Shown one piece after another: positions 1-13,673 of a stretch of 64,000 nt of DNA. Under the pieces are notes generated by a model. That model was given only the letters and a program-made list of their open reading frames with translations, had not been told where the DNA came from and did not search any database. Origin of the DNA: Symbiodinium sp. CCMP2592 (taxonomy: Eukaryota > Sar > Dinophyceae > Suessiales > Symbiodiniaceae). The DNA lies in the NCBI GenBank assembly GCA_905221615.1, contig CAJNDT010000502.1, positions 248,001-312,000 on the forward strand, given 5' to 3'. A program made the position numbers and the translations under genes. How positions within the stretch are numbered: position 1 is the stretch's first letter; each line of letters starts with the position of its first letter.

Positions 1-235
1 TTTTTGGATTGTGGATGCTGCTTTCGTTTGGTTTATCGCATCTTGTTGCAGGGATAGTGCTTTACCCGAAATGTCAATGCATACTCAATACTCAAGCCCT
101 AAGGCCTGTTCCCGAAAGCCTGAGCCCCTGAACCTTCGACCTCAAATCAAATGAGTCTATGAAAGCCCGAAGCCATGAAGTCCGAACTCAAGGCACACCT
201 GGAGCTGCTGGAGACCCTACCGCAAGATATGCGGC
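1..235. other. No recognisable feature
   Basis: I see no coding region and no clear repeat here. The reading frames are short and have no recognisable motif. Confidence 0.5.
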
Positions 236-455
236 TTGGGCTTAGGGTTTTGGATTTCGGGTGCAGGGTTTGGGGTTTAAGCTTTAGGGGTTTAGGATTT
301 AAGGGTTTAGGGGTTTGGGGGCCTAGGGGCTTTGGGTTTAGGGTTTTAGGGTTTAGGGATTTAGGGGTTTAGGGTTTAGGGGTTTAGGGGCTTAGGGTTT
401 AGGGGCTTAGGGGTTTAAGGGCTTAGGGGTTTAGGGGTTTAGGGCCTTGGAGTTG
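236..455 (+). repeat. Degenerate TTTAGGG interspersed telomere-like repeat
   Basis: Repeated TTTAGGG, TTTAGGGG and CTTAGGG heptamers/octamers in the G-rich-on-plus orientation. The short open frame across it (Gly/Leu/Phe-rich) is a by-product of the repeat. Confidence 0.8.
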
Positions 456-536
456 CAGGTTTCAGGATGGACGCAGCAAAGGTTTCGTCGGAGAGGGATC
501 AGTGGTGATGGGGTTAGTGCAGTAGCAGCAGCAATA

Positions 537-3012: not shown

Positions 3013-3120
3013 GTTTTGGGTTTAGGGTTTAGGGGTTTAGGATCTAGGATTTACATGCAGGGTTTAGGGTTTAGGGTTTAGGATTTAGGGTTTAGGGTTG
3101 AGGGTTTAGAGTGAGAGTTT
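3013..3120 (+). repeat. TTTAGGG block
   Basis: Heptamers with variants such as TTTAGGA. Orientation is opposite to the block 130 bp upstream. Confidence 0.75.
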
Positions 3121-3690
3121 AGAGGCTGAATGCTGTTTTGGAGCCTAGTAGTAGAGGAGGTAACCTTTAACCTTTGTTGGGTAGTTTAGCGCATATAAAA
3201 TCACTATATGACCACAAAGGTTAATTTTTTTGTTCCGCATGATACCCGACAAGTAGGGGAAGGGTTTAGAGTTTTCAGGGCGTCAAACCTCATTGTGGAC
3301 CCTGTTTACCGCGCCCCCTTCCTGCAAGGCCTTATTCTTGAGATTCGTATTGTAACGTTTCGGATCTTTAGCTAAGGTCACACAGGATGCGCCTATCTTG
3401 CAAGCAGTCTTTCCTTGGCTTGACCGCTGAAGGAAAGGAACCCAGCACACTGTAGTAGCGCTGTTTGACTTAATTAGAGTATGTACCGTAAGACCCCAGA
3501 CAAAACTCCACAGTAATCTCCCAAGAAGTTGGGATTTTTGTTGCCGGGACCCTCTTCTATCTTTTAGCTGAAAGTCATGTGGGGAATGATACTCCCCACT
3601 TTCTGGCTTCTACTTTGAAGCCAACGCTTCAATCCTTGACTGGGGCTCCCTACCGAACACCCTGCAACCCTGAATCCCACAGCCCACCAA
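3121..3690. other. Spacer with one short sequence shared with 53.4 kb
   Basis: No gene seen. Positions 3238-3259 match 53445-53466 over 22 bp. Near 3595-3616 there is a solitary right-end fragment of a family P element (CTTTCTGGCTTCTACT). Confidence 0.5.
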
Positions 3691-3691
3691 A

Positions 3692-3800
3692 TCGGTAACC
3701 CTAAACCCTAAACCCTAAAACCCTAAACCCTAAGACCCCAAACCCTAAAACCCCTAAGACCCTAAGACCTTAAGACCCTAAAACCCTATCCCCTAAAAAG
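3692..3800 (-). repeat. CCCTAAA block
   Basis: Diverged CCCTAAA/CCCTAAGA heptamers just upstream of the nested insertion. Confidence 0.75.
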
Positions 3801-3830
3801 CCCCGAGCCATCAGCCCTCTACTTCAACCC

Positions 3831-3880: not shown

Positions 3881-3913
3881 GGCCCCAAAGTAGTTTCTTT
3901 TTGGGAGTACCTT
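3881..3913. mobile_element. Left half of a split palindromic element, family X
   Basis: This arm (GGCCCCAAAGTA ... TTTTTGGG) is the inverted match of the arm at 13669-13720. The two halves belonged to one palindrome before the copia element inserted near its centre. Confidence 0.75.
3909..3913. repeat. Target-site duplication of the copia element, left copy
   Basis: ACCTT immediately outside the LTR, matched by ACCTT at 13669-13673. Five bases is the usual duplication for Ty1/copia integrases. Confidence 0.85.
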
Positions 3914-4141
3914 CCCGGAAGGGGGATGGCCACAGCAGTACTGTTTCCACGAGCGAACGACCGACAGAAAAGCATCTTAACAGCTTGCTGTACAAGTTCC
4001 TATACACTTCTGTCTTTTGTCGAGAAGGTGCTTTACCCCCCAATAAGCAGAGCAACATGTTTCTTCTTCTATACAACTACTTTCTACTCTATCTTCTTCT
4101 TCTTGCATCCAGAGCCTGAGCATCGGCTTACCTGATCTCCG
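3914..4141 (-). repeat. 3' LTR of the copia element
   Basis: This 228-bp LTR is identical to 13441-13668. On the minus strand it starts CGGAGATCAGG and ends TTCCGGG, so it lacks the usual TG...CA ends. Near its start it contains CAGGTAAG, a perfect canonical 5' splice-site match whose use is unknown. Confidence 0.95.
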
Positions 4142-4149
4142 CTCCCCCT
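4142..4149 (-). promoter_or_regulatory. Polypurine tract (PPT)
   Basis: On the minus strand AGGGGGAG lies directly against the 3' LTR, where the plus-strand DNA primer of LTR retrotransposons is made. It is short but correctly placed. Confidence 0.7.
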
Positions 4150-4192
4150 GCTGGCATGGCCGTTGCCGTGCCTGCAAACTCCACGTGGCTCA

Positions 4193-7100
4193 TCAATACC
4201 GCCGGTGCTGATGCAGGAAGTCATCCTGTCCAGGTCCTGCTGCCGAGAGCCTGCTTCCCCAGACCGACCGCTGCTGATCGATGTCCCGTAAAGGAACCCT
4301 AACCGGCACTTGCCAATCTTCCGTGATTGCAGGAGCAACCATACGATCGGGATGAAGGCCAACGACACCCGCCCTTGGGCCTTGGGTCCCAAAAAACTGA
4401 GGATTATTAGCCCTAATCGCCTGTTGTCTAGCCTCTTCGAAACTCAACACTCGCACGTGTGGGGCAGGGCGGTCGTCCGAAGGACTTACAGGGATTTCAA
4501 CAGCATCGTCCAAATACCTGATCACTCGAGTGGGCACCTGCTGAGATGCCGGTTCAAGTTCCGGCTCAGTGGTTTGAACTGGTAGTCCTCGACGCCTAGC
4601 TCTCAAACGACTCTCTCTCTCCTCTCTGAGCTCTGTCTGCATCTGCAGTGCTTCTACATGGTCCTCAGGTAAAGGCTCTTGTAAATCCGGCCTTCGCAGC
4701 CGAGCTAGAACCGCCGAAAGAGTCCTAATCCCAAACTTCAGCCCTTCCCAACAGCACACGACCGTAACTACGACCCCTATCCAGAACATCCATTCGATTC
4801 CGTCATCATCAACCTCAGTGGACCGGTGTCCTTCAGCTTGGCAAACCATACATGCCAAAAGCACAACCTGCAAACACTTCAACGTGGCCTTCGACAGACC
4901 CTGGCTCTCCTTCGGGTTGTGGACTGAAGTGTTTCCTATCTCTTGAACTCCGATCAGACTGCACAGATACTTTACGCGTTGAGCTCCCAAAGGCTTGGTA
5001 CCTAAATCAGCTCCGTTCTGCAACCCCTCAATGTGGCTAATCATGTAAAACCCCATTTCCCACCGCTCGCGCATCGTGCGAGCTTTGATTCTCAACGACC
5101 TCGTTCTCCAATGGGAGTTTTGCCCTACGAAGACAGATACGGCTGCTTGATTATCATTGTAGATGTGGACGCGCGGCGCTTTCTGGGCCAATTCCGCCAA
5201 GAGGTAGACATGAGCCTGTGCAAAGCAACATCCTGTAGCCGTTGCTAAGAGCTCAGTCTCACATGAGCTTTGAGTCATATAAGCCTGGCGCGTGACATGC
5301 CAACCAACAAGGCAGTTTTCAACGAACAACAAGCAGCATTCATTAGAGCGTGACGCATCCGGTGCAAATGAACTGTCCGTGAGCACTTCCAGCAGGTTGT
5401 TACATCCAGCCTCCTTTCGTCCCGGTCTTGGGCCGCTCGGATCAGAACACAAGTACACCAATCCAACATTCGCAGAATCAACCAGGTAAGCAAGCACATG
5501 CAACCCCAGTTGGTAAGTTCTGGACGGGTCACGATTCATCCACTGCGCAAGTTTGGATATCGAAAACGACACATCTGGACGCGTACGCACACTGACCCAC
5601 AGGATTTCGCCAATCAAACGCTGACACTTACGAAGTACACTGCTGTCAATGTTCTCCACTGCTTCCGGCTCCATTACCCCTGGTCCCAACGGGGTCCCGC
5701 AATGCTTAACCTTCTGAAGCTCATGGGAGTACCGATCCGCAAGGTCTTTAATGTACGACTCCTGCCAGATAAGCAAATTGCGCTCAGACGACCAAGCCAA
5801 CTGCAACCCAAGAAATCGCAACGGCTTACACAAATCGGCGGTCAACCATTCTGGGTCTCCACATTTCCACATAGTGGTAATAGTCTTCAGCAACAACTTA
5901 ACCAATTCACAGCACGCAGCGATAATAAGGTCGTCTATGTACACTCCAATCCAACCCCAAACCGAAACTCCAGACTCCTCATGCTGATCAAGCCCTAGAC
6001 CCGATCTGCTCCAGCATCTTTCCGGTTCGCTCTCGGCGATAAGCCAGAGATTGGGGTCCGCAAACGATTGAAACAATCTGAGCTCCTGATCTTTATACTT
6101 CACGACTACCCGCCTCAGCGAGAAATCTCGACTCAGGCTCCAGTCTCTAGGACTAGTGTCAAGTCCGTAAATCGCCTTGGCCACCTGCCAAAGGGTGTTT
6201 TTGCCGACTAAGCCCCGCTGCACCAAACAACGCGGAGGGATTAAGATCACGATTTCATCGATTGGTACGCTCTCTCCCTGCGCAGCCGCCGCAGCGGCTT
6301 GCTCCGCCTTGACCCTCGCCCTCGGTAAAAGCTCCGCATTAAGAAATGCGGTCCTAATGTCAGTGATGGCTATCTCATAGGAACGTCTCGCAGCTACTGC
6401 CAAGGCACATCGAAGGTGTGTGACATCAAGGGAAGAGGCAAACACAGCATCCTTGTGATCCTGCCGACTTTCATCCTTCGAGGGTGCCATGTTTCCACAC
6501 GCCACTATTCGACATTTATGCCGACCATCCGGAGCCTTAATTGTCCACACAGCCTTAGCAGGGATGGTGATTACTCGTTTTCCAGAGTCTTTCCACCGCT
6601 GCACTTGTTTCCAATCAACTGGAATCAAGGCGCGCTTCTCATCCACCAAGGCCGAAATCTCCTTGTTTGCAGGATGCTCCCAAACTTCCCAGTTCGCCAG
6701 GACCTCCGACAGAGATACAGTTCGGGTCTGCAGCACCGTGTCTGTACCATCATCCTCAGACGCACGCGTGGACACCTCAACCGCAGTTAGAGCTTTCAGT
6801 TCCTCGCGAAGCTCGTGGACTCTATCCCATGCCCCTTGGACCTCAGCCAAGTCCGTATCGCCTAAAGTAGCAACGGCCTCACTCCCACCTGCATGCTCAA
6901 GCCAACGCGCCAAACGGTCCTCAGCGAACCCGCTCAACCTCAACTGAGCACGATCAAGCTCCTCAATGTGAGCCGTCAGCTCTGACAAGTCCCATGGAGC
7001 TTGCTCAACTTCACCTTCAGACGCGGTATGCCAACTACACACGCTAGCAGCATCATCCTCTTGATCCTGACGGTCAGCTGCATCAAAAGTTTCACCACTC

Positions 7101-10100
7101 AGCAACCAAGCGCAAGGACCATCAACATGACTCCCAGTGCCATCCACTTGAGCAGAAGTTTGGTCACCAAGACAACTCAAGGTAGCCTCATCCATGGGGC
7201 ACGACGCTTCAACCAAGTTATCCTCCAAGGTCAAGCCAAGATCCACCGCACCCTTATCACGCACAGCCAAACTCATGTCCGAGACCGCCTGAACGCTATC
7301 AACCAAGCTCACGTCGACATCACAACCAAGCTTCACGCAACTCAACACAACCTCAACTTCACCTGGCACAAGCTCCACTCGTGCCTCCGCTTCCTTTTTA
7401 TAGGTTATACAATTTTTATTTGGGTTTTCAAAGTCTTTTTCTACCGCGCTCTCCACAGAAGTGTTTATTTGAGTTGGAGTGGAGGGACACGGCTCATCAG
7501 CAACACTAGCTATACATGCATGCTCATGCAAGCTCGCAAAATTTCCAGGGTACCCCGTCACGGTGGCTCCCCCTTTTGTCTGCCCTTCAGGCAGACAAAA
7601 CCGCAACTTACGAAGAGTCTGCTCCTGCTCATCGCTCATGTTGGACCAACAACCAACGGTATATGCAATCAACACGACACGGCGATCAGGAGGCTGCCAG
7701 GCTTCAGTGGCGTGTAAAACCCCAGGCTTAAACAGCAGAGGCGCAGACCAGGGATGCAGCTGGCCGACCACTTCACGGCCTTTATGTCGCACGACCTGAA
7801 TCTCGCCCGAAACAACCTCACCAACCTCAAGTGCAGTCCACAAGCGCCCTCCGCGCTCCGGAACCTGCAAAGGCACCAAACCGGAACGCGACTCATAATC
7901 GTTCGACGTGTCCTTGTGCACCACGGCCTGAGCGTCAACTGACAAGCTCACCGTTGTGAAAGTAAGATCCGGCAGGCGTTCATGGAGTACACGACTTAGC
8001 AGCGTGGCAAAGCCTGGATGGGATTTGGTGAGACGGGTCATAGACACCACACCACCATGACGACAAGCTCCAAAGAGGTAATGAACTCCCCCCAAACAGC
8101 GAGTAGGAGCCTGGTGAGACGACCTATGTACAAACTCGGACCCCAGCACGAAATCCATAGCGGCTTGACAATCAAAAGGAACCTGTTCTGCCAACCGGGC
8201 CGCCTGAGCATCCTCATCAATCCCTGGCCCCGGTCTCTCGCGCAAAGCTCGCAAAGACCGCTTACCCCAAATCCGAAATGCAGGAGAGGGAGTTACCTTG
8301 CCACGCATGCGCCGTCTCACGGCCCCGGGCTCGGCAATCGGAGGTAAGCCCTTGCCAACGAAAAGTTGCAGATCCGATTCTTCGCCAAAGTGAAGTTTAC
8401 TAACGACAGAAAGCTTGTTGCCTACTTTGACGACATAGCCTTGTCTCACATACGTGGCCGGTGCCAAAACGACAGCCGGAGTAGCACGCATATGCCATTC
8501 TCGCTGCCGACGCCTGAGCCAGTGTCGAACCAAAACCTGGGTCCGGGTGCCGAACGGCACTATCGGTTTAACCGCCATACCAAACTTCCTCAAGGTATCG
8601 GCTCGCCATGTGGCGGCCGCCGCACGAAAGGCCAGGGCCCACTTAGATGTATCATTACCCACCAGCTGCAAATACACTCGTACTTGGACTTTGAGTCTTT
8701 TGACGACGTTCTCAACTCTACCGTTACTGTCATGCTCGGTGGGAGGGGCGAGTGTAAGGAGGATACCGCGAGACGCAGCATACTCCCGCAGACGCTCATC
8801 AGTAAACTCAGTACCAGCGTCAGCATGAATGCGAGCTAATGGAAAGCCAAGCTCCACAAGTTGAGCATGAATACGGCCAACCGCCAAGCACACGCTTTGC
8901 GGGGTCTTACGATCCAACAGCTCCACAAAAACAACTTCTCTCCACGCCATGCCCTCAGCCTCCTTTTCATAATCGGATTGCTGCTTAGCCCACGCATCCT
9001 CAGGACCTCCAACCTCTGGAGCGTCCAATCGTTCACCTTCCAGCGGGACCTCAGCTTCCAAGTTTTCGCCTTCCCAAAGGGCCTCAGGACCCTCATAGAC
9101 TTCGGAAGCATCATCCGCAAGAGCACCGAACCACTCATCAACGTCCTTCTGAAGCTCCTCGAAGTCAGGATCAACATCCCGCACGCAAGCATCCTTATCC
9201 TCACCCGAAGCCTGCTCTTGGTCTTCACCCAAAACTGGTTTACCCTGCGCATCGACAGGGACCACGAGGACACCTACCAGTGCATACCGACGCTTATGCG
9301 AGACATCATCTGCCACACGCACAAACGGTCCCACGACATCAAGGGAGAGACAAAACGAAGCCGGAGAATGCTGACGACGGTGCGCACGCTGCTGTGCCGA
9401 GGCCATAATACAGTACTTACACCTTCTATGCGGGGGCCAGTGTCCTGACCGAATGTGCTGAGGCCAATCAACAGAGTCAACCTTACAAGCCGACGCGCGA
9501 GAACGACTCAACAGCACCGAGGAAAGCCTGTCCCTAGCTGGCTCCCCCCAACTTGCATGCTCACACAACAACTCACCGAAGTAACTCAAGTTCTGCACGC
9601 CCGAACCGGGAACAGGACTAAGAGCATGGTCCCCTGTGCCAACAACCAACACAGACGGCTTATCCTTTCCAAGTGTTTCACACGCAACACAACTCACCTT
9701 TGCTAACAAGCCAAGGAAGATGGACTCATCCTGATCCAAGCCGCGCCTGTTATCAACCAGAATCACAGCAATCTTTCCATCAACCGCCAGCTCAAGCAAC
9801 AGTCTCTGAGTGGAAGGGCTCATGAGGTGATCCTTAACTGGCAGAAGCAACGGCTCACAGCCCGACTGATGTGCCATCTTGCGGCACTCACTCCACCAAG
9901 GATCTCCTTTATAACTTATCACTACCCTATCACTCTTATTACATGCCCGGCGCTGCCGACGATTCCAACACGCGAGCGCTCCACTCCGAGGAGCCCAAGT
10001 GAACGGACAACCAACAGCCAAGTCAAACTGCCCTGACCATAACCGCCGGACTACTGCCTCCAGACTCGCAGCAACATCTTGATCCATCCGAATGGCCTCA

Positions 10101-13100
10101 ACCAAAAACTTTACAAGGTGACGTTCTTCAGTACTCGAATACTCATGCGCAATCTGGATCGCTCTTACCGAGGTGGCTAATGCTTCGTGATATCCACTCT
10201 CAATGTCTCGAAGAAGCTCCAATGCTAGGTCTTCACTCATGCGCGGACAACCACTCGAATCGTCCATCGTGAGAACGCCCCTTACCGGATGAATCAATTC
10301 ACACCTCCCTTCAGACCAAAACCAATGACACCCGAGCTTAATCAAAGGTCTCAATGCCACAATACACTCAATGTCTTGAGTGGAAACCAACGTGCCATAC
10401 TCATTCATGTACAACACAGCGTTTCCCTCGGCCAAGTCTACCAGCCGACGCGTCATCCCCTCCGTAGTCTCCCCGGGCTTTAGTCCCCGAAGACAAGTGG
10501 AGGCTCCAGAATCCAACAACCCCGTACGAACACCACGAGCCTCAAGCCTGTTCAATGTTGGCTTCATTCGCAATGCTTTAGCTTGCATGGTCTTTATCAA
10601 GTTCTGGGTTTCTTTCAACAACTCAAGCTGGGCTTTAGAGGCTTGGGAACTCTCGGACGGCCTCTCTTCCTCCACTCCTTTCAAGAGGGGCTTGTTAGGA
10701 TCAGGCTTATCAGCACCCTTTCCACCCGAGCCCTTGGGTTTACCACCCTTTTGACCCTTGCTTGTGTCCCCAGCATCCGTGGGACACTGATATGCCATAT
10801 GACCCAACCCGCTACACACAAAACACCTGCTTCTAGCATCTGGGGCCTTCTGGAGGTCTTCATGGCTATGGGCAAAGTTGCATCGCGCTCCCCTCGAGCA
10901 CCCTTTCGAGGTAAGCCAGTGATAACAAGCGTTACCCGAAGCTGACTCACTCGCCTTCCCTGAACCTTTGTTCCCTTTAGAACCCTTTTTACCACCATCC
11001 TTCCCACCATGAGGCGGATCGGCACCGTCCAATCGGGTATCAACCCGAGCAAGCTTTGGCTTTTTAGCCCCAGAAGATTCCAGAGTCTGAAGCTCTGCTT
11101 GCATCATCTCCCCTAAAGAAACCGCCTTATCTAAGGTGGGGACCAAGTCAACCGAATGTTGATGACGAAACGTTTGAAGTCTAAACTGCACGTCCGGAAA
11201 CTGGGCTACAACTGACGACGTCAAGCAGTCCAGGCCGGATATTAGCAGCGTGGCATCCGGTAATGTCACTCCCAATTCAACAGCCCTCCTACGCCAACGA
11301 GCCCAACGCTTGACACCTCTCAAAGCATCCGAAACCGTTTTGGCCCCTTCTGGTGTAGCAAGATACCTCAGCAGCGCCGTACGCTCTCTAAGGCCACCAG
11401 GCTGAAATGTTGTAAGGATGATGCCCATTATCTCGATGGATGTCATGCGCCTCATTGACACTACTTCGTCCTTGATGGTAGGGGGAACTGCTTTCAACAG
11501 AAGTGCCACTGCACGCTGCTCCACTCTAGCGTACTTGCCTCTCTCGAACCTATCGGGCCTTTCAGGTTTTAGAGTGAGACGCTCAATCGGTCCACTATCC
11601 AACCACCTCGCATAATAGTCCTGGGCCGCAGATAGAGACTCGGCCCACCAATCAGAGGCATGCGCGGACAAATCCCGCAAGGAAGGGCCTATCAAAGCAA
11701 CCCAATCCCCAGCAATCAAAGGAGTCAACTCCCGCTCAGTTTCCTTAACCTCAAGCTTGGGCAATTCCCCTACATTTTTCACATCCTCAACCCGATCTCG
11801 ATCCACCGACCCTGTTCCTCGGATCGCCCCTTCGAGGGCGGCTGTTAACTTTTGAATGTCATTCTCCGGAGCAGGAGGTGGGGGCAAAGGACGGTAATCG
11901 TCGTGTTGAAGTTGTTCACTCCTACTGGGGGACCTACGAGGAGGAGGAGGTTTGATTTCTGTTCCACCGGGTGAAATCGGATAAACAATTCTGGGTCGTC
12001 GAGTTGGAGACTGTTCAGATACACCCGGTGCGGAAGTAGCAGTCACGTTAGCACCTTCTGCAGGAGTTCGATTTCTTTCAGGAGAGCGACTGTAACTCCT
12101 AGCATCCAAACCTCGCGACCGAGACAAACCCTCACCAGGCACAAAATCATGTGGCTCTTCCCTCGTCCGTGCCGCAGCACCTGATTGATATGGACTGAAG
12201 GGAGTCCTGGCCTTCGGGTCGAAAGGAGATGCACAACGAGTTTCAGTAGTACGATTCTTACTTCCAGCAAGATGAAGTTCCACCGAATCGCAAATCGCCC
12301 CCGGTCTATCCACTCTCCCTCTTTCTCTCGACTCTCGGAGCATCTCATTTCTATCACTCAACTCCCGTTCTCTCACCCGTCTCTCACTAAACTCTCGCTC
12401 ACGCTCACCTCTCTCAACACATGGTTCGAGAACCAACTCTCCTTCAGGAGAAAAGCGCCAAGAATGTCGAGTACCATCCACCACCACTGTCCCAGAACCC
12501 TTGGGGCCTCTAGCCGAGCCATGATCTAATGGAACCCCCGCAACCTGGGTTGGATTGGCATCGTCCACCCCGACATTCCCTAACGGAACAACAGCAGCAG
12601 GTCTTGGATCTGCAATGGCAAGGCTTCTCATAGCAGCTGTGACGTTGGATCCACCGGTTGTTTGATCCCCAGGTCTACGCCTAGGTCCAACATCCACTCC
12701 TCTCTCCATCCGTCTATGGCTACCAACACTTCGCTCAGATGCTGAGTTCTCGCTCGAGTGCTCCACCTCCAGCCTTTCCAAGCGTGAAAGCATGGTCGCT
12801 TGCGCCATCCTAACTTGATCAAGTGCCGGTGCCAGACTAGCCTGAATAACCGATTGTAGCATCACGCTCATTTCACCCAATACCTCATGCCGCACTCTCG
12901 CCAAACCTTCCTCAAGTTGCGTCTGCCCTGTATTCCAACTGCTCGGCGAACCCGAGGCTGCACCCGGTGATAAACCAACCGCTGCTAGTGCACGGTTCGG
13001 ATCATGGTCTACACTACCTGCTCCAGGTCGTAACACTGGTCGTGATGATGTCTGCGGCTTCTCAGGGCTGGCAACTTCCGATTTGGAGCTTTCTTCAGCC

Positions 13101-13414
13101 GGTAAGGCCGAATAATCTGGGACCAGTTCTGGCTCATCGATGTCCATAACCGGTAGTCTTGACCCCTGGGAAGCTGGAGAAGGACCAGTTGCTTCTACAC
13201 GATAAACTCCCAACCTCGGTGACTCTTGATGTTCGCGGTCCATAGCCTCTCTCTCATATGGCGGATGAAGGTCCTGCTCTGATACACAGCTCATGTGTGA
13301 TCTTTCTGAAATACCACCGTGGTCATCACCACCATACATAGCCGCCTGCACTGAATAACCCCAATTCGTTGGGGAGCTGTCTCTTGCAGATTCGGGCGGA
13401 GCTGAACTATCCAT
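4193..13414 (-). CDS. Ty1/copia Gag-Pol polyprotein, 3,073 aa
   Basis: A single frame encodes all retrotransposition functions. Residues 1-550 are low-complexity, Ser/Pro/Arg-rich (RSYSRSPERNR, about 440), with a likely coiled coil at 165-220. Residues 560-780 form a Trp-rich Gag-like region. A C3H1 finger (C830-x8-C-x5-C-x3-H849) precedes a CCHC knuckle (C864-x2-C-x4-H-x4-C877). Protease: DSGA at 968-971. Integrase: zinc-binding H1320/H1325/C1332/C1335, then D1359, D1532 and E1568 (D,D-35-E), with an acidic insert at about 1395-1490. Residues 1770-1925 resemble a 2OG-Fe(II) dioxygenase. Reverse transcriptase 2240-2540 has D2352 and YIDD 2492-2495. RNase H has D2680, E2719, D2754 and D2803. 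Two hydrophobic segments (2843-2860, 2875-2892) lie in the tail. The start ATG is 26 nt inside the LTR edge, and the TGA stop is 51 nt before the 3' LTR. All expected catalytic residues are present, with no frameshift or stop. Plus-strand frames over it are shadows. Confidence 0.95.
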   Translation of the reverse strand: MDSSAPPESARDSSPTNWGYSVQAAMYGGDDHGGISERSHMSCVSEQDLHPPYEREAMDREHQESPRLGVYRVEATGPSPASQGSRLPVMDIDEPELVPDYSALPAEESSKSEVASPEKPQTSSRPVLRPGAGSVDHDPNRALAAVGLSPGAASGSPSSWNTGQTQLEEGLARVRHEVLGEMSVMLQSVIQASLAPALDQVRMAQATMLSRLERLEVEHSSENSASERSVGSHRRMERGVDVGPRRRPGDQTTGGSNVTAAMRSLAIADPRPAAVVPLGNVGVDDANPTQVAGVPLDHGSARGPKGSGTVVVDGTRHSWRFSPEGELVLEPCVERGEREREFSERRVRERELSDRNEMLRESRERGRVDRPGAICDSVELHLAGSKNRTTETRCASPFDPKARTPFSPYQSGAAARTREEPHDFVPGEGLSRSRGLDARSYSRSPERNRTPAEGANVTATSAPGVSEQSPTRRPRIVYPISPGGTEIKPPPPRRSPSRSEQLQHDDYRPLPPPPAPENDIQKLTAALEGAIRGTGSVDRDRVEDVKNVGELPKLEVKETERELTPLIAGDWVALIGPSLRDLSAHASDWWAESLSAAQDYYARWLDSGPIERLTLKPERPDRFERGKYARVEQRAVALLLKAVPPTIKDEVVSMRRMTSIEIMGIILTTFQPGGLRERTALLRYLATPEGAKTVSDALRGVKRWARWRRRAVELGVTLPDATLLISGLDCLTSSVVAQFPDVQFRLQTFRHQHSVDLVPTLDKAVSLGEMMQAELQTLESSGAKKPKLARVDTRLDGADPPHGGKDGGKKGSKGNKGSGKASESASGNACYHWLTSKGCSRGARCNFAHSHEDLQKAPDARSRCFVCSGLGHMAYQCPTDAGDTSKGQKGGKPKGSGGKGADKPDPNKPLLKGVEEERPSESSQASKAQLELLKETQNLIKTMQAKALRMKPTLNRLEARGVRTGLLDSGASTCLRGLKPGETTEGMTRRLVDLAEGNAVLYMNEYGTLVSTQDIECIVALRPLIKLGCHWFWSEGRCELIHPVRGVLTMDDSSGCPRMSEDLALELLRDIESGYHEALATSVRAIQIAHEYSSTEERHLVKFLVEAIRMDQDVAASLEAVVRRLWSGQFDLAVGCPFTWAPRSGALACWNRRQRRACNKSDRVVISYKGDPWWSECRKMAHQSGCEPLLLPVKDHLMSPSTQRLLLELAVDGKIAVILVDNRRGLDQDESIFLGLLAKVSCVACETLGKDKPSVLVVGTGDHALSPVPGSGVQNLSYFGELLCEHASWGEPARDRLSSVLLSRSRASACKVDSVDWPQHIRSGHWPPHRRCKYCIMASAQQRAHRRQHSPASFCLSLDVVGPFVRVADDVSHKRRYALVGVLVVPVDAQGKPVLGEDQEQASGEDKDACVRDVDPDFEELQKDVDEWFGALADDASEVYEGPEALWEGENLEAEVPLEGERLDAPEVGGPEDAWAKQQSDYEKEAEGMAWREVVFVELLDRKTPQSVCLAVGRIHAQLVELGFPLARIHADAGTEFTDERLREYAASRGILLTLAPPTEHDSNGRVENVVKRLKVQVRVYLQLVGNDTSKWALAFRAAAATWRADTLRKFGMAVKPIVPFGTRTQVLVRHWLRRRQREWHMRATPAVVLAPATYVRQGYVVKVGNKLSVVSKLHFGEESDLQLFVGKGLPPIAEPGAVRRRMRGKVTPSPAFRIWGKRSLRALRERPGPGIDEDAQAARLAEQVPFDCQAAMDFVLGSEFVHRSSHQAPTRCLGGVHYLFGACRHGGVVSMTRLTKSHPGFATLLSRVLHERLPDLTFTTVSLSVDAQAVVHKDTSNDYESRSGLVPLQVPERGGRLWTALEVGEVVSGEIQVVRHKGREVVGQLHPWSAPLLFKPGVLHATEAWQPPDRRVVLIAYTVGCWSNMSDEQEQTLRKLRFCLPEGQTKGGATVTGYPGNFASLHEHACIASVADEPCPSTPTQINTSVESAVEKDFENPNKNCITYKKEAEARVELVPGEVEVVLSCVKLGCDVDVSLVDSVQAVSDMSLAVRDKGAVDLGLTLEDNLVEASCPMDEATLSCLGDQTSAQVDGTGSHVDGPCAWLLSGETFDAADRQDQEDDAASVCSWHTASEGEVEQAPWDLSELTAHIEELDRAQLRLSGFAEDRLARWLEHAGGSEAVATLGDTDLAEVQGAWDRVHELREELKALTAVEVSTRASEDDGTDTVLQTRTVSLSEVLANWEVWEHPANKEISALVDEKRALIPVDWKQVQRWKDSGKRVITIPAKAVWTIKAPDGRHKCRIVACGNMAPSKDESRQDHKDAVFASSLDVTHLRCALAVAARRSYEIAITDIRTAFLNAELLPRARVKAEQAAAAAAQGESVPIDEIVILIPPRCLVQRGLVGKNTLWQVAKAIYGLDTSPRDWSLSRDFSLRRVVVKYKDQELRLFQSFADPNLWLIAESEPERCWSRSGLGLDQHEESGVSVWGWIGVYIDDLIIAACCELVKLLLKTITTMWKCGDPEWLTADLCKPLRFLGLQLAWSSERNLLIWQESYIKDLADRYSHELQKVKHCGTPLGPGVMEPEAVENIDSSVLRKCQRLIGEILWVSVRTRPDVSFSISKLAQWMNRDPSRTYQLGLHVLAYLVDSANVGLVYLCSDPSGPRPGRKEAGCNNLLEVLTDSSFAPDASRSNECCLLFVENCLVGWHVTRQAYMTQSSCETELLATATGCCFAQAHVYLLAELAQKAPRVHIYNDNQAAVSVFVGQNSHWRTRSLRIKARTMRERWEMGFYMISHIEGLQNGADLGTKPLGAQRVKYLCSLIGVQEIGNTSVHNPKESQGLSKATLKCLQVVLLACMVCQAEGHRSTEVDDDGIEWMFWIGVVVTVVCCWEGLKFGIRTLSAVLARLRRPDLQEPLPEDHVEALQMQTELREERESRLRARRRGLPVQTTEPELEPASQQVPTRVIRYLDDAVEIPVSPSDDRPAPHVRVLSFEEARQQAIRANNPQFFGTQGPRAGVVGLHPDRMVAPAITEDWQVPVRVPLRDIDQQRSVWGSRLSAAGPGQDDFLHQHRRY
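7640..8107 (-). other. Dioxygenase-like domain inside the polyprotein (residues 1770-1925)
   Basis: Between integrase and RT the polyprotein holds a segment with H1833-x-D1835, a GG-x-LW strand (1855-1859), H1901 in VLHATEAW and R1911/R1912 followed by VVLIAYTVG. Order and spacing (HxD, 65 residues to the distal His, Arg 10-11 later) match the double-stranded beta-helix of 2-oxoglutarate/Fe(II) oxygenases such as the AlkB, TET/JBP and prolyl hydroxylase families. The subfamily and substrate cannot be told from the sequence alone. Nucleic-acid or histone demethylation/hydroxylation is a hypothesis. The domain is not part of the standard copia complement. Confidence 0.65.
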
Positions 13415-13428
13415 GGCACGAACGACTT

Positions 13429-13440
13429 GGGCTCATAACC
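13429..13440 (-). promoter_or_regulatory. Primer-binding site for a half initiator tRNA-Met
   Basis: On the minus strand GGTTATGAGCCC follows the 5' LTR directly. Its complement GGGCTCATAACC is the anticodon arm (anticodon CAU) of eukaryotic initiator tRNA-Met rather than its 3' acceptor end. Drosophila copia and yeast Ty5 are primed this way, by a tRNA cut in the anticodon region. Confidence 0.8.
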
Positions 13441-13668
13441 CCCGGAAGGGGGATGGCCACAGCAGTACTGTTTCCACGAGCGAACGACCGACAGAAAAGC
13501 ATCTTAACAGCTTGCTGTACAAGTTCCTATACACTTCTGTCTTTTGTCGAGAAGGTGCTTTACCCCCCAATAAGCAGAGCAACATGTTTCTTCTTCTATA
13601 CAACTACTTTCTACTCTATCTTCTTCTTCTTGCATCCAGAGCCTGAGCATCGGCTTACCTGATCTCCG
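13441..13668 (-). repeat. 5' LTR of the copia element
   Basis: This LTR is identical over 228 bp to 3914-4141. It should carry the promoter; I cannot identify a promoter element with confidence, since dinoflagellates generally lack a classical TATA box. Confidence 0.95.
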
Positions 13669-13673
13669 ACCTT
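13669..13673. repeat. Target-site duplication of the copia element, right copy
   Basis: ACCTT, identical to 3909-3913. Confidence 0.85.

Follow-up and report, generated by a model that had tools for sequence, protein, structure and literature searches.

What is a dioxygenase-like domain doing between the integrase and the reverse transcriptase (RT) of a retrotransposon? The question is raised by a Ty1/copia-type element, bounded by long terminal repeats (LTRs), in a 64,000-nucleotide stretch of DNA from the dinoflagellate Symbiodinium sp. CCMP2592 (assembly GCA_905221615.1, contig CAJNDT010000502.1, positions 248,001 to 312,000; the whole stretch is called the window below). A preliminary description, made from the letters alone, had proposed that the element's polyprotein carries at this place, in frame, a 2-oxoglutarate (2OG)/Fe(II) oxygenase, a proposal for which sequence and predicted fold give good support. 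That the domain modifies nucleic acid is likely, and less secure than its identity as an oxygenase. Our preferred answer, which we hold to be rather probable, goes further: the domain would be an active TET/JBP-like Fe(II)/2OG dioxygenase, a fixed part of Pol in many dinoflagellate-type copia elements, acting on DNA of the element or of its insertion site to counter silencing.

The domain and its motifs

The coding frame (13414..4193, minus strand) is open for 3,073 residues, and the domain lies intact within it:

7580..8218, minus strand: TET/JBP-like 2OG/Fe(II) dioxygenase domain (residues 1733-1945), as judged by alignments A2-A4, an AlphaFold2 model and structural matches
7901..7918, minus strand: H1833-x-D1835-x-x-N1838, two predicted metal ligands and an Asn aligned by profile with the Asn of TET2 HRDLHN
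7838..7852, minus strand: GGRLW (1855-1859)
7712..7714, minus strand: H1901, predicted third metal ligand, present in 103/103 genome loci (see below)
7679..7681, minus strand: R1912, conserved, and presumed from its superfamily to bind 2OG

The residues had been located exactly in the preliminary description (residue 1770 at 8105-8107, H1833 at 7916-7918, D1835 at 7910-7912, H1901 at 7712-7714, residue 1925 at 7640-7642), and its "GG-x-LW" reads GGRLW. Its boundaries, 1770-1925, do fall in the domain, which is larger (about 1733-1945); and of the pair R1911/R1912 that it singled out, R1912 is conserved (Arg in 89/103 loci) while column 1911 is mixed (Arg in 28/103).

Relatives, conservation and history

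A database search with the domain gave four proteins, all with RVT_2; a search from the relative P0003 gave eight, P0003 counted, with P0005-P0009 new; and a search with a ten-member alignment gave seven short proteins, P0010-P0016. Fifteen columns are invariant in alignment A2 (the window domain and nine relatives), including H1833, D1835, N1838, both Gly of the GG, F1895, H1901, R1912 and Y1918. A scan of viral contigs with A2 yielded 11 pattern matches and no relative among them.

When the host genome (a 1.098-Gb assembly of 5,383 contigs) was searched with the domain, 150 of 3,797 candidates were scored; all 150 match at E<=0.001, 146 of them without a stop in the matched stretch and many in frames of 2-3.5 thousand residues. 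The first 68 loci (60 fetched, 8 returned by the genome search) all align without a stop; they include some duplicates (L002 is identical with the window locus; L006 and L009 overlap) and five near-identical copies of the window element. Two further batches, of 15 and 20 loci, come from genome matches to the Pfam family Tet_JBP and bring the set to 103, duplicates included. Intact copies are favoured in this set because its loci were chosen for resembling the domain or Tet_JBP. In it H1833, D1835, W1859 and H1901 each stand in 103/103 loci, N1838 in 101/103 and each Gly of the GG in 98/103; column 1912 holds Arg in 89, Lys in 12, Pro in 1 and Ser in 1. The His/Asp/His triad, likewise kept in 10/10 members of A2, is invariant in 56/56 non-redundant sequences, the other 55 of which are 20-45% identical to the window domain. 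This invariance, together with a confident prediction of a jelly-roll (below), places the order of motifs above chance.

One copia-like clade (L084-L090, L092-L095, L101) has Lys for the presumed 2OG-binding Arg (GGPKWT or GGTKWT) and His for the strand Tyr; its metal ligands are all kept.

Among pairs of the 103 loci with dS 0.05-1.2 and over 120 codons (78 pairs), the median dN/dS of the domain is 0.127 (range 0.031-0.695). The top of this range is set by pairs that involve L070, a locus in which the frame seems altered upstream; once the DIRS-type loci L069-L083 are left aside, the remaining 20 pairs, not all of them independent, give 0.031-0.236. In a set of 11 long polyproteins, some of them truncated where the fetched stretch stops, domain distances follow those of the RT (r 0.755) and of the upstream, gag-protease-side part (r 0.622), with 0/2,000 permutations as high in either case, and a tree groups the window domain with P0001 and L006. 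To judge by these comparisons, the domain is under purifying selection and has been inherited together with the RT; low dN/dS, co-variation with the RT and the upstream part, and the tree mark it as a long-standing component that the element has preserved.

What kind of oxygenase?

Single-sequence searches failed: the window segment alone matches nothing in Pfam, nor in the PDB by phmmer, and a PDB search with the ten-member profile found nothing. Wider family profiles and structure gave the signal of identity. The AlphaFold2 model of the window domain, built on a ten-row alignment, has a mean predicted local distance difference test score (pLDDT) of 90.1 and a predicted template modelling score (pTM) of 0.88 (five models, mean pLDDT 88.1-90.1). 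The predicted fold is the jelly-roll that an oxygenase reading calls for, and TET enzymes lead its matches among solved structures. In the second-stage structural comparison, against 1,000 PDB chains, the top three are NgTET1 (two titled with 5-methylcytosine (5mC) DNA, one with 5-hydroxymethylcytosine DNA), followed by SnoN, a Burkholderia oxygenase, FTO, TET2, AlkB and CcTet; the named matches are 2OG oxygenases, and no entry named aspartyl/asparaginyl hydroxylase is among the 50 structural matches listed.

In the PDB a 56-member profile picks up three chains of TET2 (E 0.031-0.032) besides a single unrelated one (1.3). Narrowed to a subset of 13 members, all taken from Tet_JBP-found loci, the profile scores TET2 at 0.0028-0.0029 and CcTet at 0.89-0.94, with a single unrelated chain at 0.95. 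Both searches align HxDxxN with HRDLHN of TET2. The Asn of that motif is N1387 in human TET2 and contacts the cytosine.

Pfam finds Tet_JBP in one of the ten A2 members (0.057), no better than the chance families beside it. Over the host genome the Tet_JBP profile gives 148 matches at E<=10, the best at 2.2e-4. Of the loci taken from these matches, 35/35 are found at <=2.2e-26 by a copia-domain profile built without them, and comparison of the two sets as profiles gives probability 100, E 7e-46. Five long frames fetched for Tet_JBP-matching loci run to 2,599-2,963 aa within the stretch. Four of them (L106, L107, L109 and L110; Tet_JBP E 2.1e-5, 3.3e-5, 0.0021 and 0.01) can be aligned to copia polyproteins all the way from gag, by integrase and the domain, to RT; L108 aligns with them weakly outside the domain. 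Pfam applied to the 56 members reports Tet_JBP in 19 (best 4.5e-7), a count not used as proof because 17 of the 56 had been found with that profile.

L108 (G000:C2846:374500-384400) is an observation apart: a 2,754-aa frame with a dioxygenase-like domain and a mostly unmatched remainder, perhaps a further type of element.

A proposed function

How might such an enzyme serve its element? The element's protease presumably frees the dioxygenase, alone or attached to integrase or RT; travelling with the pre-integration complex, the enzyme would reach the element's DNA, and there, or at the insertion site, it could oxidise the methyl group of a DNA base (5mC or thymine). In a heavily CG-methylated host such oxidation would weaken the silencing of new copies, an effect already proposed for fungal DNA transposons that carry TET. 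Two outcomes can be imagined: oxidation of 5mC would lift silencing, and oxidation of thymine would mark the DNA. The match of HxDxxN to TET2 slightly favours 5mC as substrate.

For the host, the part of PMC5890265 drawn on here reports that most of the Symbiodinium genome is methylated at CG. In dinoflagellate DNA, 5-hydroxymethyluracil is reported to replace 12-68% of thymine, and it is enriched on most repeats in Breviolum; the portion of the source used (PMC11071213) names no dinoflagellate enzyme for it.

How firm is the assignment?

A number of observations weigh against an active, TET/JBP-like enzyme. In structure TET leads SnoN by about one Z unit and leads FTO, AlkB and the Burkholderia oxygenase by 1.1-1.6. 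Margins this small come close to a tie, so that the fold alone suggests TET without proving it. The window domain has no Pfam match, and no Tet_JBP match found in the genome reaches the cut-off (34.9 bits; best 29.6), which is why the domain is called TET/JBP-like and not a member of the Pfam family. Of the 39 members not chosen through Tet_JBP, eight match Asp_Arg_Hydrox (best 1.3e-4) and two match Tet_JBP (best 0.0096); the subfamily name goes no further than "TET/JBP-like" for this reason. HxD is lost in two of the five short database proteins that cover the site (P0011 HVE, P0015 GID; seven short proteins in all), and the Arg at 1912 is missing in 14/103 loci, 12 of which have Lys. The sampling went through the domain itself, so that elements in which it is lost or broken are under-represented.

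What else could the domain be? It may be a true Fe(II)/2OG oxygenase, captured by copia, of another subfamily, acting on protein (aspartyl/asparaginyl-hydroxylase-like) or on RNA or alkylated bases (AlkB/FTO-like), for example on integrase, capsid or element RNA. The Asp_Arg_Hydrox matches and the near tie just mentioned are what this possibility has to build on, and we place it on the unlikely side: in the PDB the family profiles recover no oxygenases besides TET2 and CcTet (the second profile coming from Tet_JBP-found loci), and HxDxxN is kept in 101/103 loci. The window domain has no match to Asp_Arg_Hydrox (PF05118) at E<=1. Over the genome the Asp_Arg_Hydrox profile finds 31 places, all in frames of <=522 aa; this is weak evidence because a first look may miss weak or long-frame matches. 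A jelly-roll that no longer catalyses and serves the polyprotein as a structural or binding module strikes us as quite improbable. Captured domains can lose catalysis, as the decay of methyltransferase-like segments in these same elements indicates (PPC has become PPG in P0006-P0008, and the window element and P0001 lack it), and the missing Arg at 1912 fits such a loss; the metal ligands, however, are invariant across all 56 non-redundant sequences, and dN/dS is low. As for a chance resemblance in a polyprotein spacer, the silence of Pfam and the PDB toward the window segment on its own would agree with it; a confident predicted fold, the lead of TET structures among its matches and family-wide invariance make it scarcely credible. 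An active TET/JBP-like dioxygenase directed at DNA is thus the reading that we retain.

The element

The element that carries the domain is whole:

3914..13668, minus strand: Ty1/copia-type LTR retrotransposon, 9,755 bp (LTRs, ACCTT duplication, RVT_2 over the Pfam cut-off)
13441..13668, minus strand: 5' LTR, identical to the 3' LTR at 228/228 nt
3914..4141, minus strand: 3' LTR, identical to the 5' LTR at 228/228 nt
3909..3913: target site duplication ACCTT, left copy
13669..13673: target site duplication ACCTT, right copy
4193..13414, minus strand: single open frame, 3,073-aa polyprotein
10784..10927, minus strand: gag zinc fingers CCCH (830-849) and CCHC (864-877), by motif, with Pfam values under the cut-offs (zf-CCCH 0.0012, zf-CCHC 0.0044)
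10499..10513, minus strand: putative aspartic protease motif DSGAS (968-972), by motif only
9473..9979, minus strand: remnant methyltransferase-like segment (about 1146-1314), PPC loop lost, located where P0002-P0005 and P0009 have their FSG...GGPPC segments
8435..9466, minus strand: integrase region (about 1317-1660), recognised by aligning other copia polyproteins; Pfam rve (1512-1558) gives 0.029, which is under its cut-off
4733..6706, minus strand: RT and RNase H region (about 2237-2894), by RVT_2 and alignment to P0003

It has what defines a Ty1/copia element: LTRs, a short target duplication, integrase (weak by Pfam) ahead of RT, and RVT_2, which scores 33.6 bits against a cut-off of 31.6 at residues 2278-2365. 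It also moved recently, as had been supposed: the LTRs are identical, the 5-bp duplication ACCTT is retained, and the genome holds five copies, the window's own counted, at 99-100% identity within the domain.

Near the element, units resembling TTTAGGG/CCCTAAA are rich at window positions 230-470, 1700-2060, 3052-3143 and 3691-3809, about 248-252 kb along the 1.26-Mb contig.

A methyltransferase-like segment before the integrase

The segment ahead of the integrase appears in its relatives in graded states of preservation: GGPPC is kept in P0002-P0005 and P0009, reads GGPPG or GSPPG in P0006-P0008, and is lost in the window element and P0001. An intact methyltransferase in the window element is rejected: the PPC loop is gone. 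Assignment of the segment to the C5-methyltransferases is weak. It has no Pfam match, a PDB profile search gives E 2.1, and a profile comparison that sets it against 13 of the genome's DNA_methylase matches gives probability 68.9, on the PPC loop only. The DNA_methylase profile over the genome (125 matches; 123 of 1,338 candidates scored, longest frame 2,034 aa) has little bearing on copia.

The preliminary description had started from the premise that dinoflagellate copia-like elements are reported to carry methyltransferases. This does not hold for the source as far as it was drawn on: PMC5890265 gives LINE and DIRS elements as the carriers and says that copia "lacks any DNMT domain". In view of that statement, a divergent copia segment may have been overlooked.

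DIRS-like elements with the same domain

The strongest Tet_JBP matches of the genome sit elsewhere, in frames of about 1,200-1,285 residues, in what look like DIRS-like retroelements, several copies of which have the same Tet_JBP score:

L104:46-7938 (G000:C485): DIRS-like retroelement
L105:1049-7855 (G000:C1301): DIRS-like retroelement

L104 has a 591-aa frame that is tyrosine recombinase-like by eye (Pfam Phage_int_SAM_1 only 0.3, below cut-off); the layout of the two also holds a shorter frame of 401 aa and a long one of 1,274-1,276 aa, in which Tet_JBP (7.6e-6, 5.8e-5) and RVT_1 (0.012, 0.005) are found, all below cut-off. The order in this Pol frame is TET/JBP-like domain, methyltransferase-like segment directly adjoining it, RT and then, by eye, RNase H. 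Two identical direct repeats (297 nt in L104, 290 nt in L105) stand at the end of the long frame. The arrangement recalls the DIRS layout, given as A-coding-B-A-B in the part of PMC5890265 used here, and the label rests on that resemblance. PPCxTxSRxR, LE[NQ]PA and KxTxLxTN are common to the DIRS-like and copia methyltransferase-like segments in an alignment of L104, L105 and P0003.

A bolder proposal can be built on these elements, and we regard it as rather doubtful: the retrotransposon TET/JBP-like dioxygenases (thousands of candidate copies, copia and DIRS-like) would make modified bases, turning thymine into 5-hydroxymethyluracil or 5mC into oxidised forms, so that mobile elements would account for part of the hydroxymethyluracil of dinoflagellate chromosomes; and a paired module, methyltransferase-like segment plus oxygenase, would have been exchanged between two unrelated classes of retroelement.

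Comparison with known systems

With the TET/JBP dioxygenases (NgTET1, TET2, CcTet; Pfam PF12851, Tet_JBP) the domain shares a predicted jelly-roll, the HxD...H triad and an Arg after the distal His, and with TET2 also an Asn three residues past the Asp, in line with HRDLHN. It differs in falling below the Pfam cut-off, in lying inside a retrotransposon polyprotein, and in a substrate that is here only proposed; NgTET1 is the top structural match, yet identity is 12% over 153-155 residues. The element resembles other Ty1/copia retrotransposons in its LTRs, 5-bp duplication, gag zinc fingers, protease motif and integrase before RVT_2; unlike them it has a dioxygenase-like domain after the integrase and a very long polyprotein (3,073 aa), and several relatives have a methyltransferase-like segment before the integrase as well.

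Among the matches listed from the open-licence literature, we found no dinoflagellate retrotransposon reported to carry a TET/JBP or 2OG oxygenase, nor any retrotransposon at all reported with the TET-like cargo known from some DNA transposons; the main text of PMC5890265, as far as drawn on, does not contain "oxygenase", "hydroxylase" or "TET". If the assignment is right, the family offers concrete candidates, rich in natural variants, for the enzymes that oxidise DNA bases in dinoflagellates, and an arms race over DNA methylation becomes directly testable in such a host.

Two precedents stand closest, each described here from part of its source. SymbioLINE-Dnmt and SymbioDIRS-Dnmt3 of Symbiodinium (PMC5890265) are likewise dinoflagellate retroelements with a captured DNA-modifying enzyme, but these enzymes are methyltransferases and not oxygenases, and their carriers are LINE and DIRS elements, copia being said to lack them. 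Fungal DNA transposons and Helitrons that carry TET/JBP (PMC12730594) are likewise mobile elements with a dioxygenase that could counter the host's cytosine methylation, whereas the carrier here is an LTR retrotransposon (and a DIRS-like one). Capture of methyltransferases by retrotransposons and of TET/JBP enzymes by DNA transposons being known, a retrotransposon with a TET/JBP-like oxygenase, such as this element appears to be, is the missing combination.
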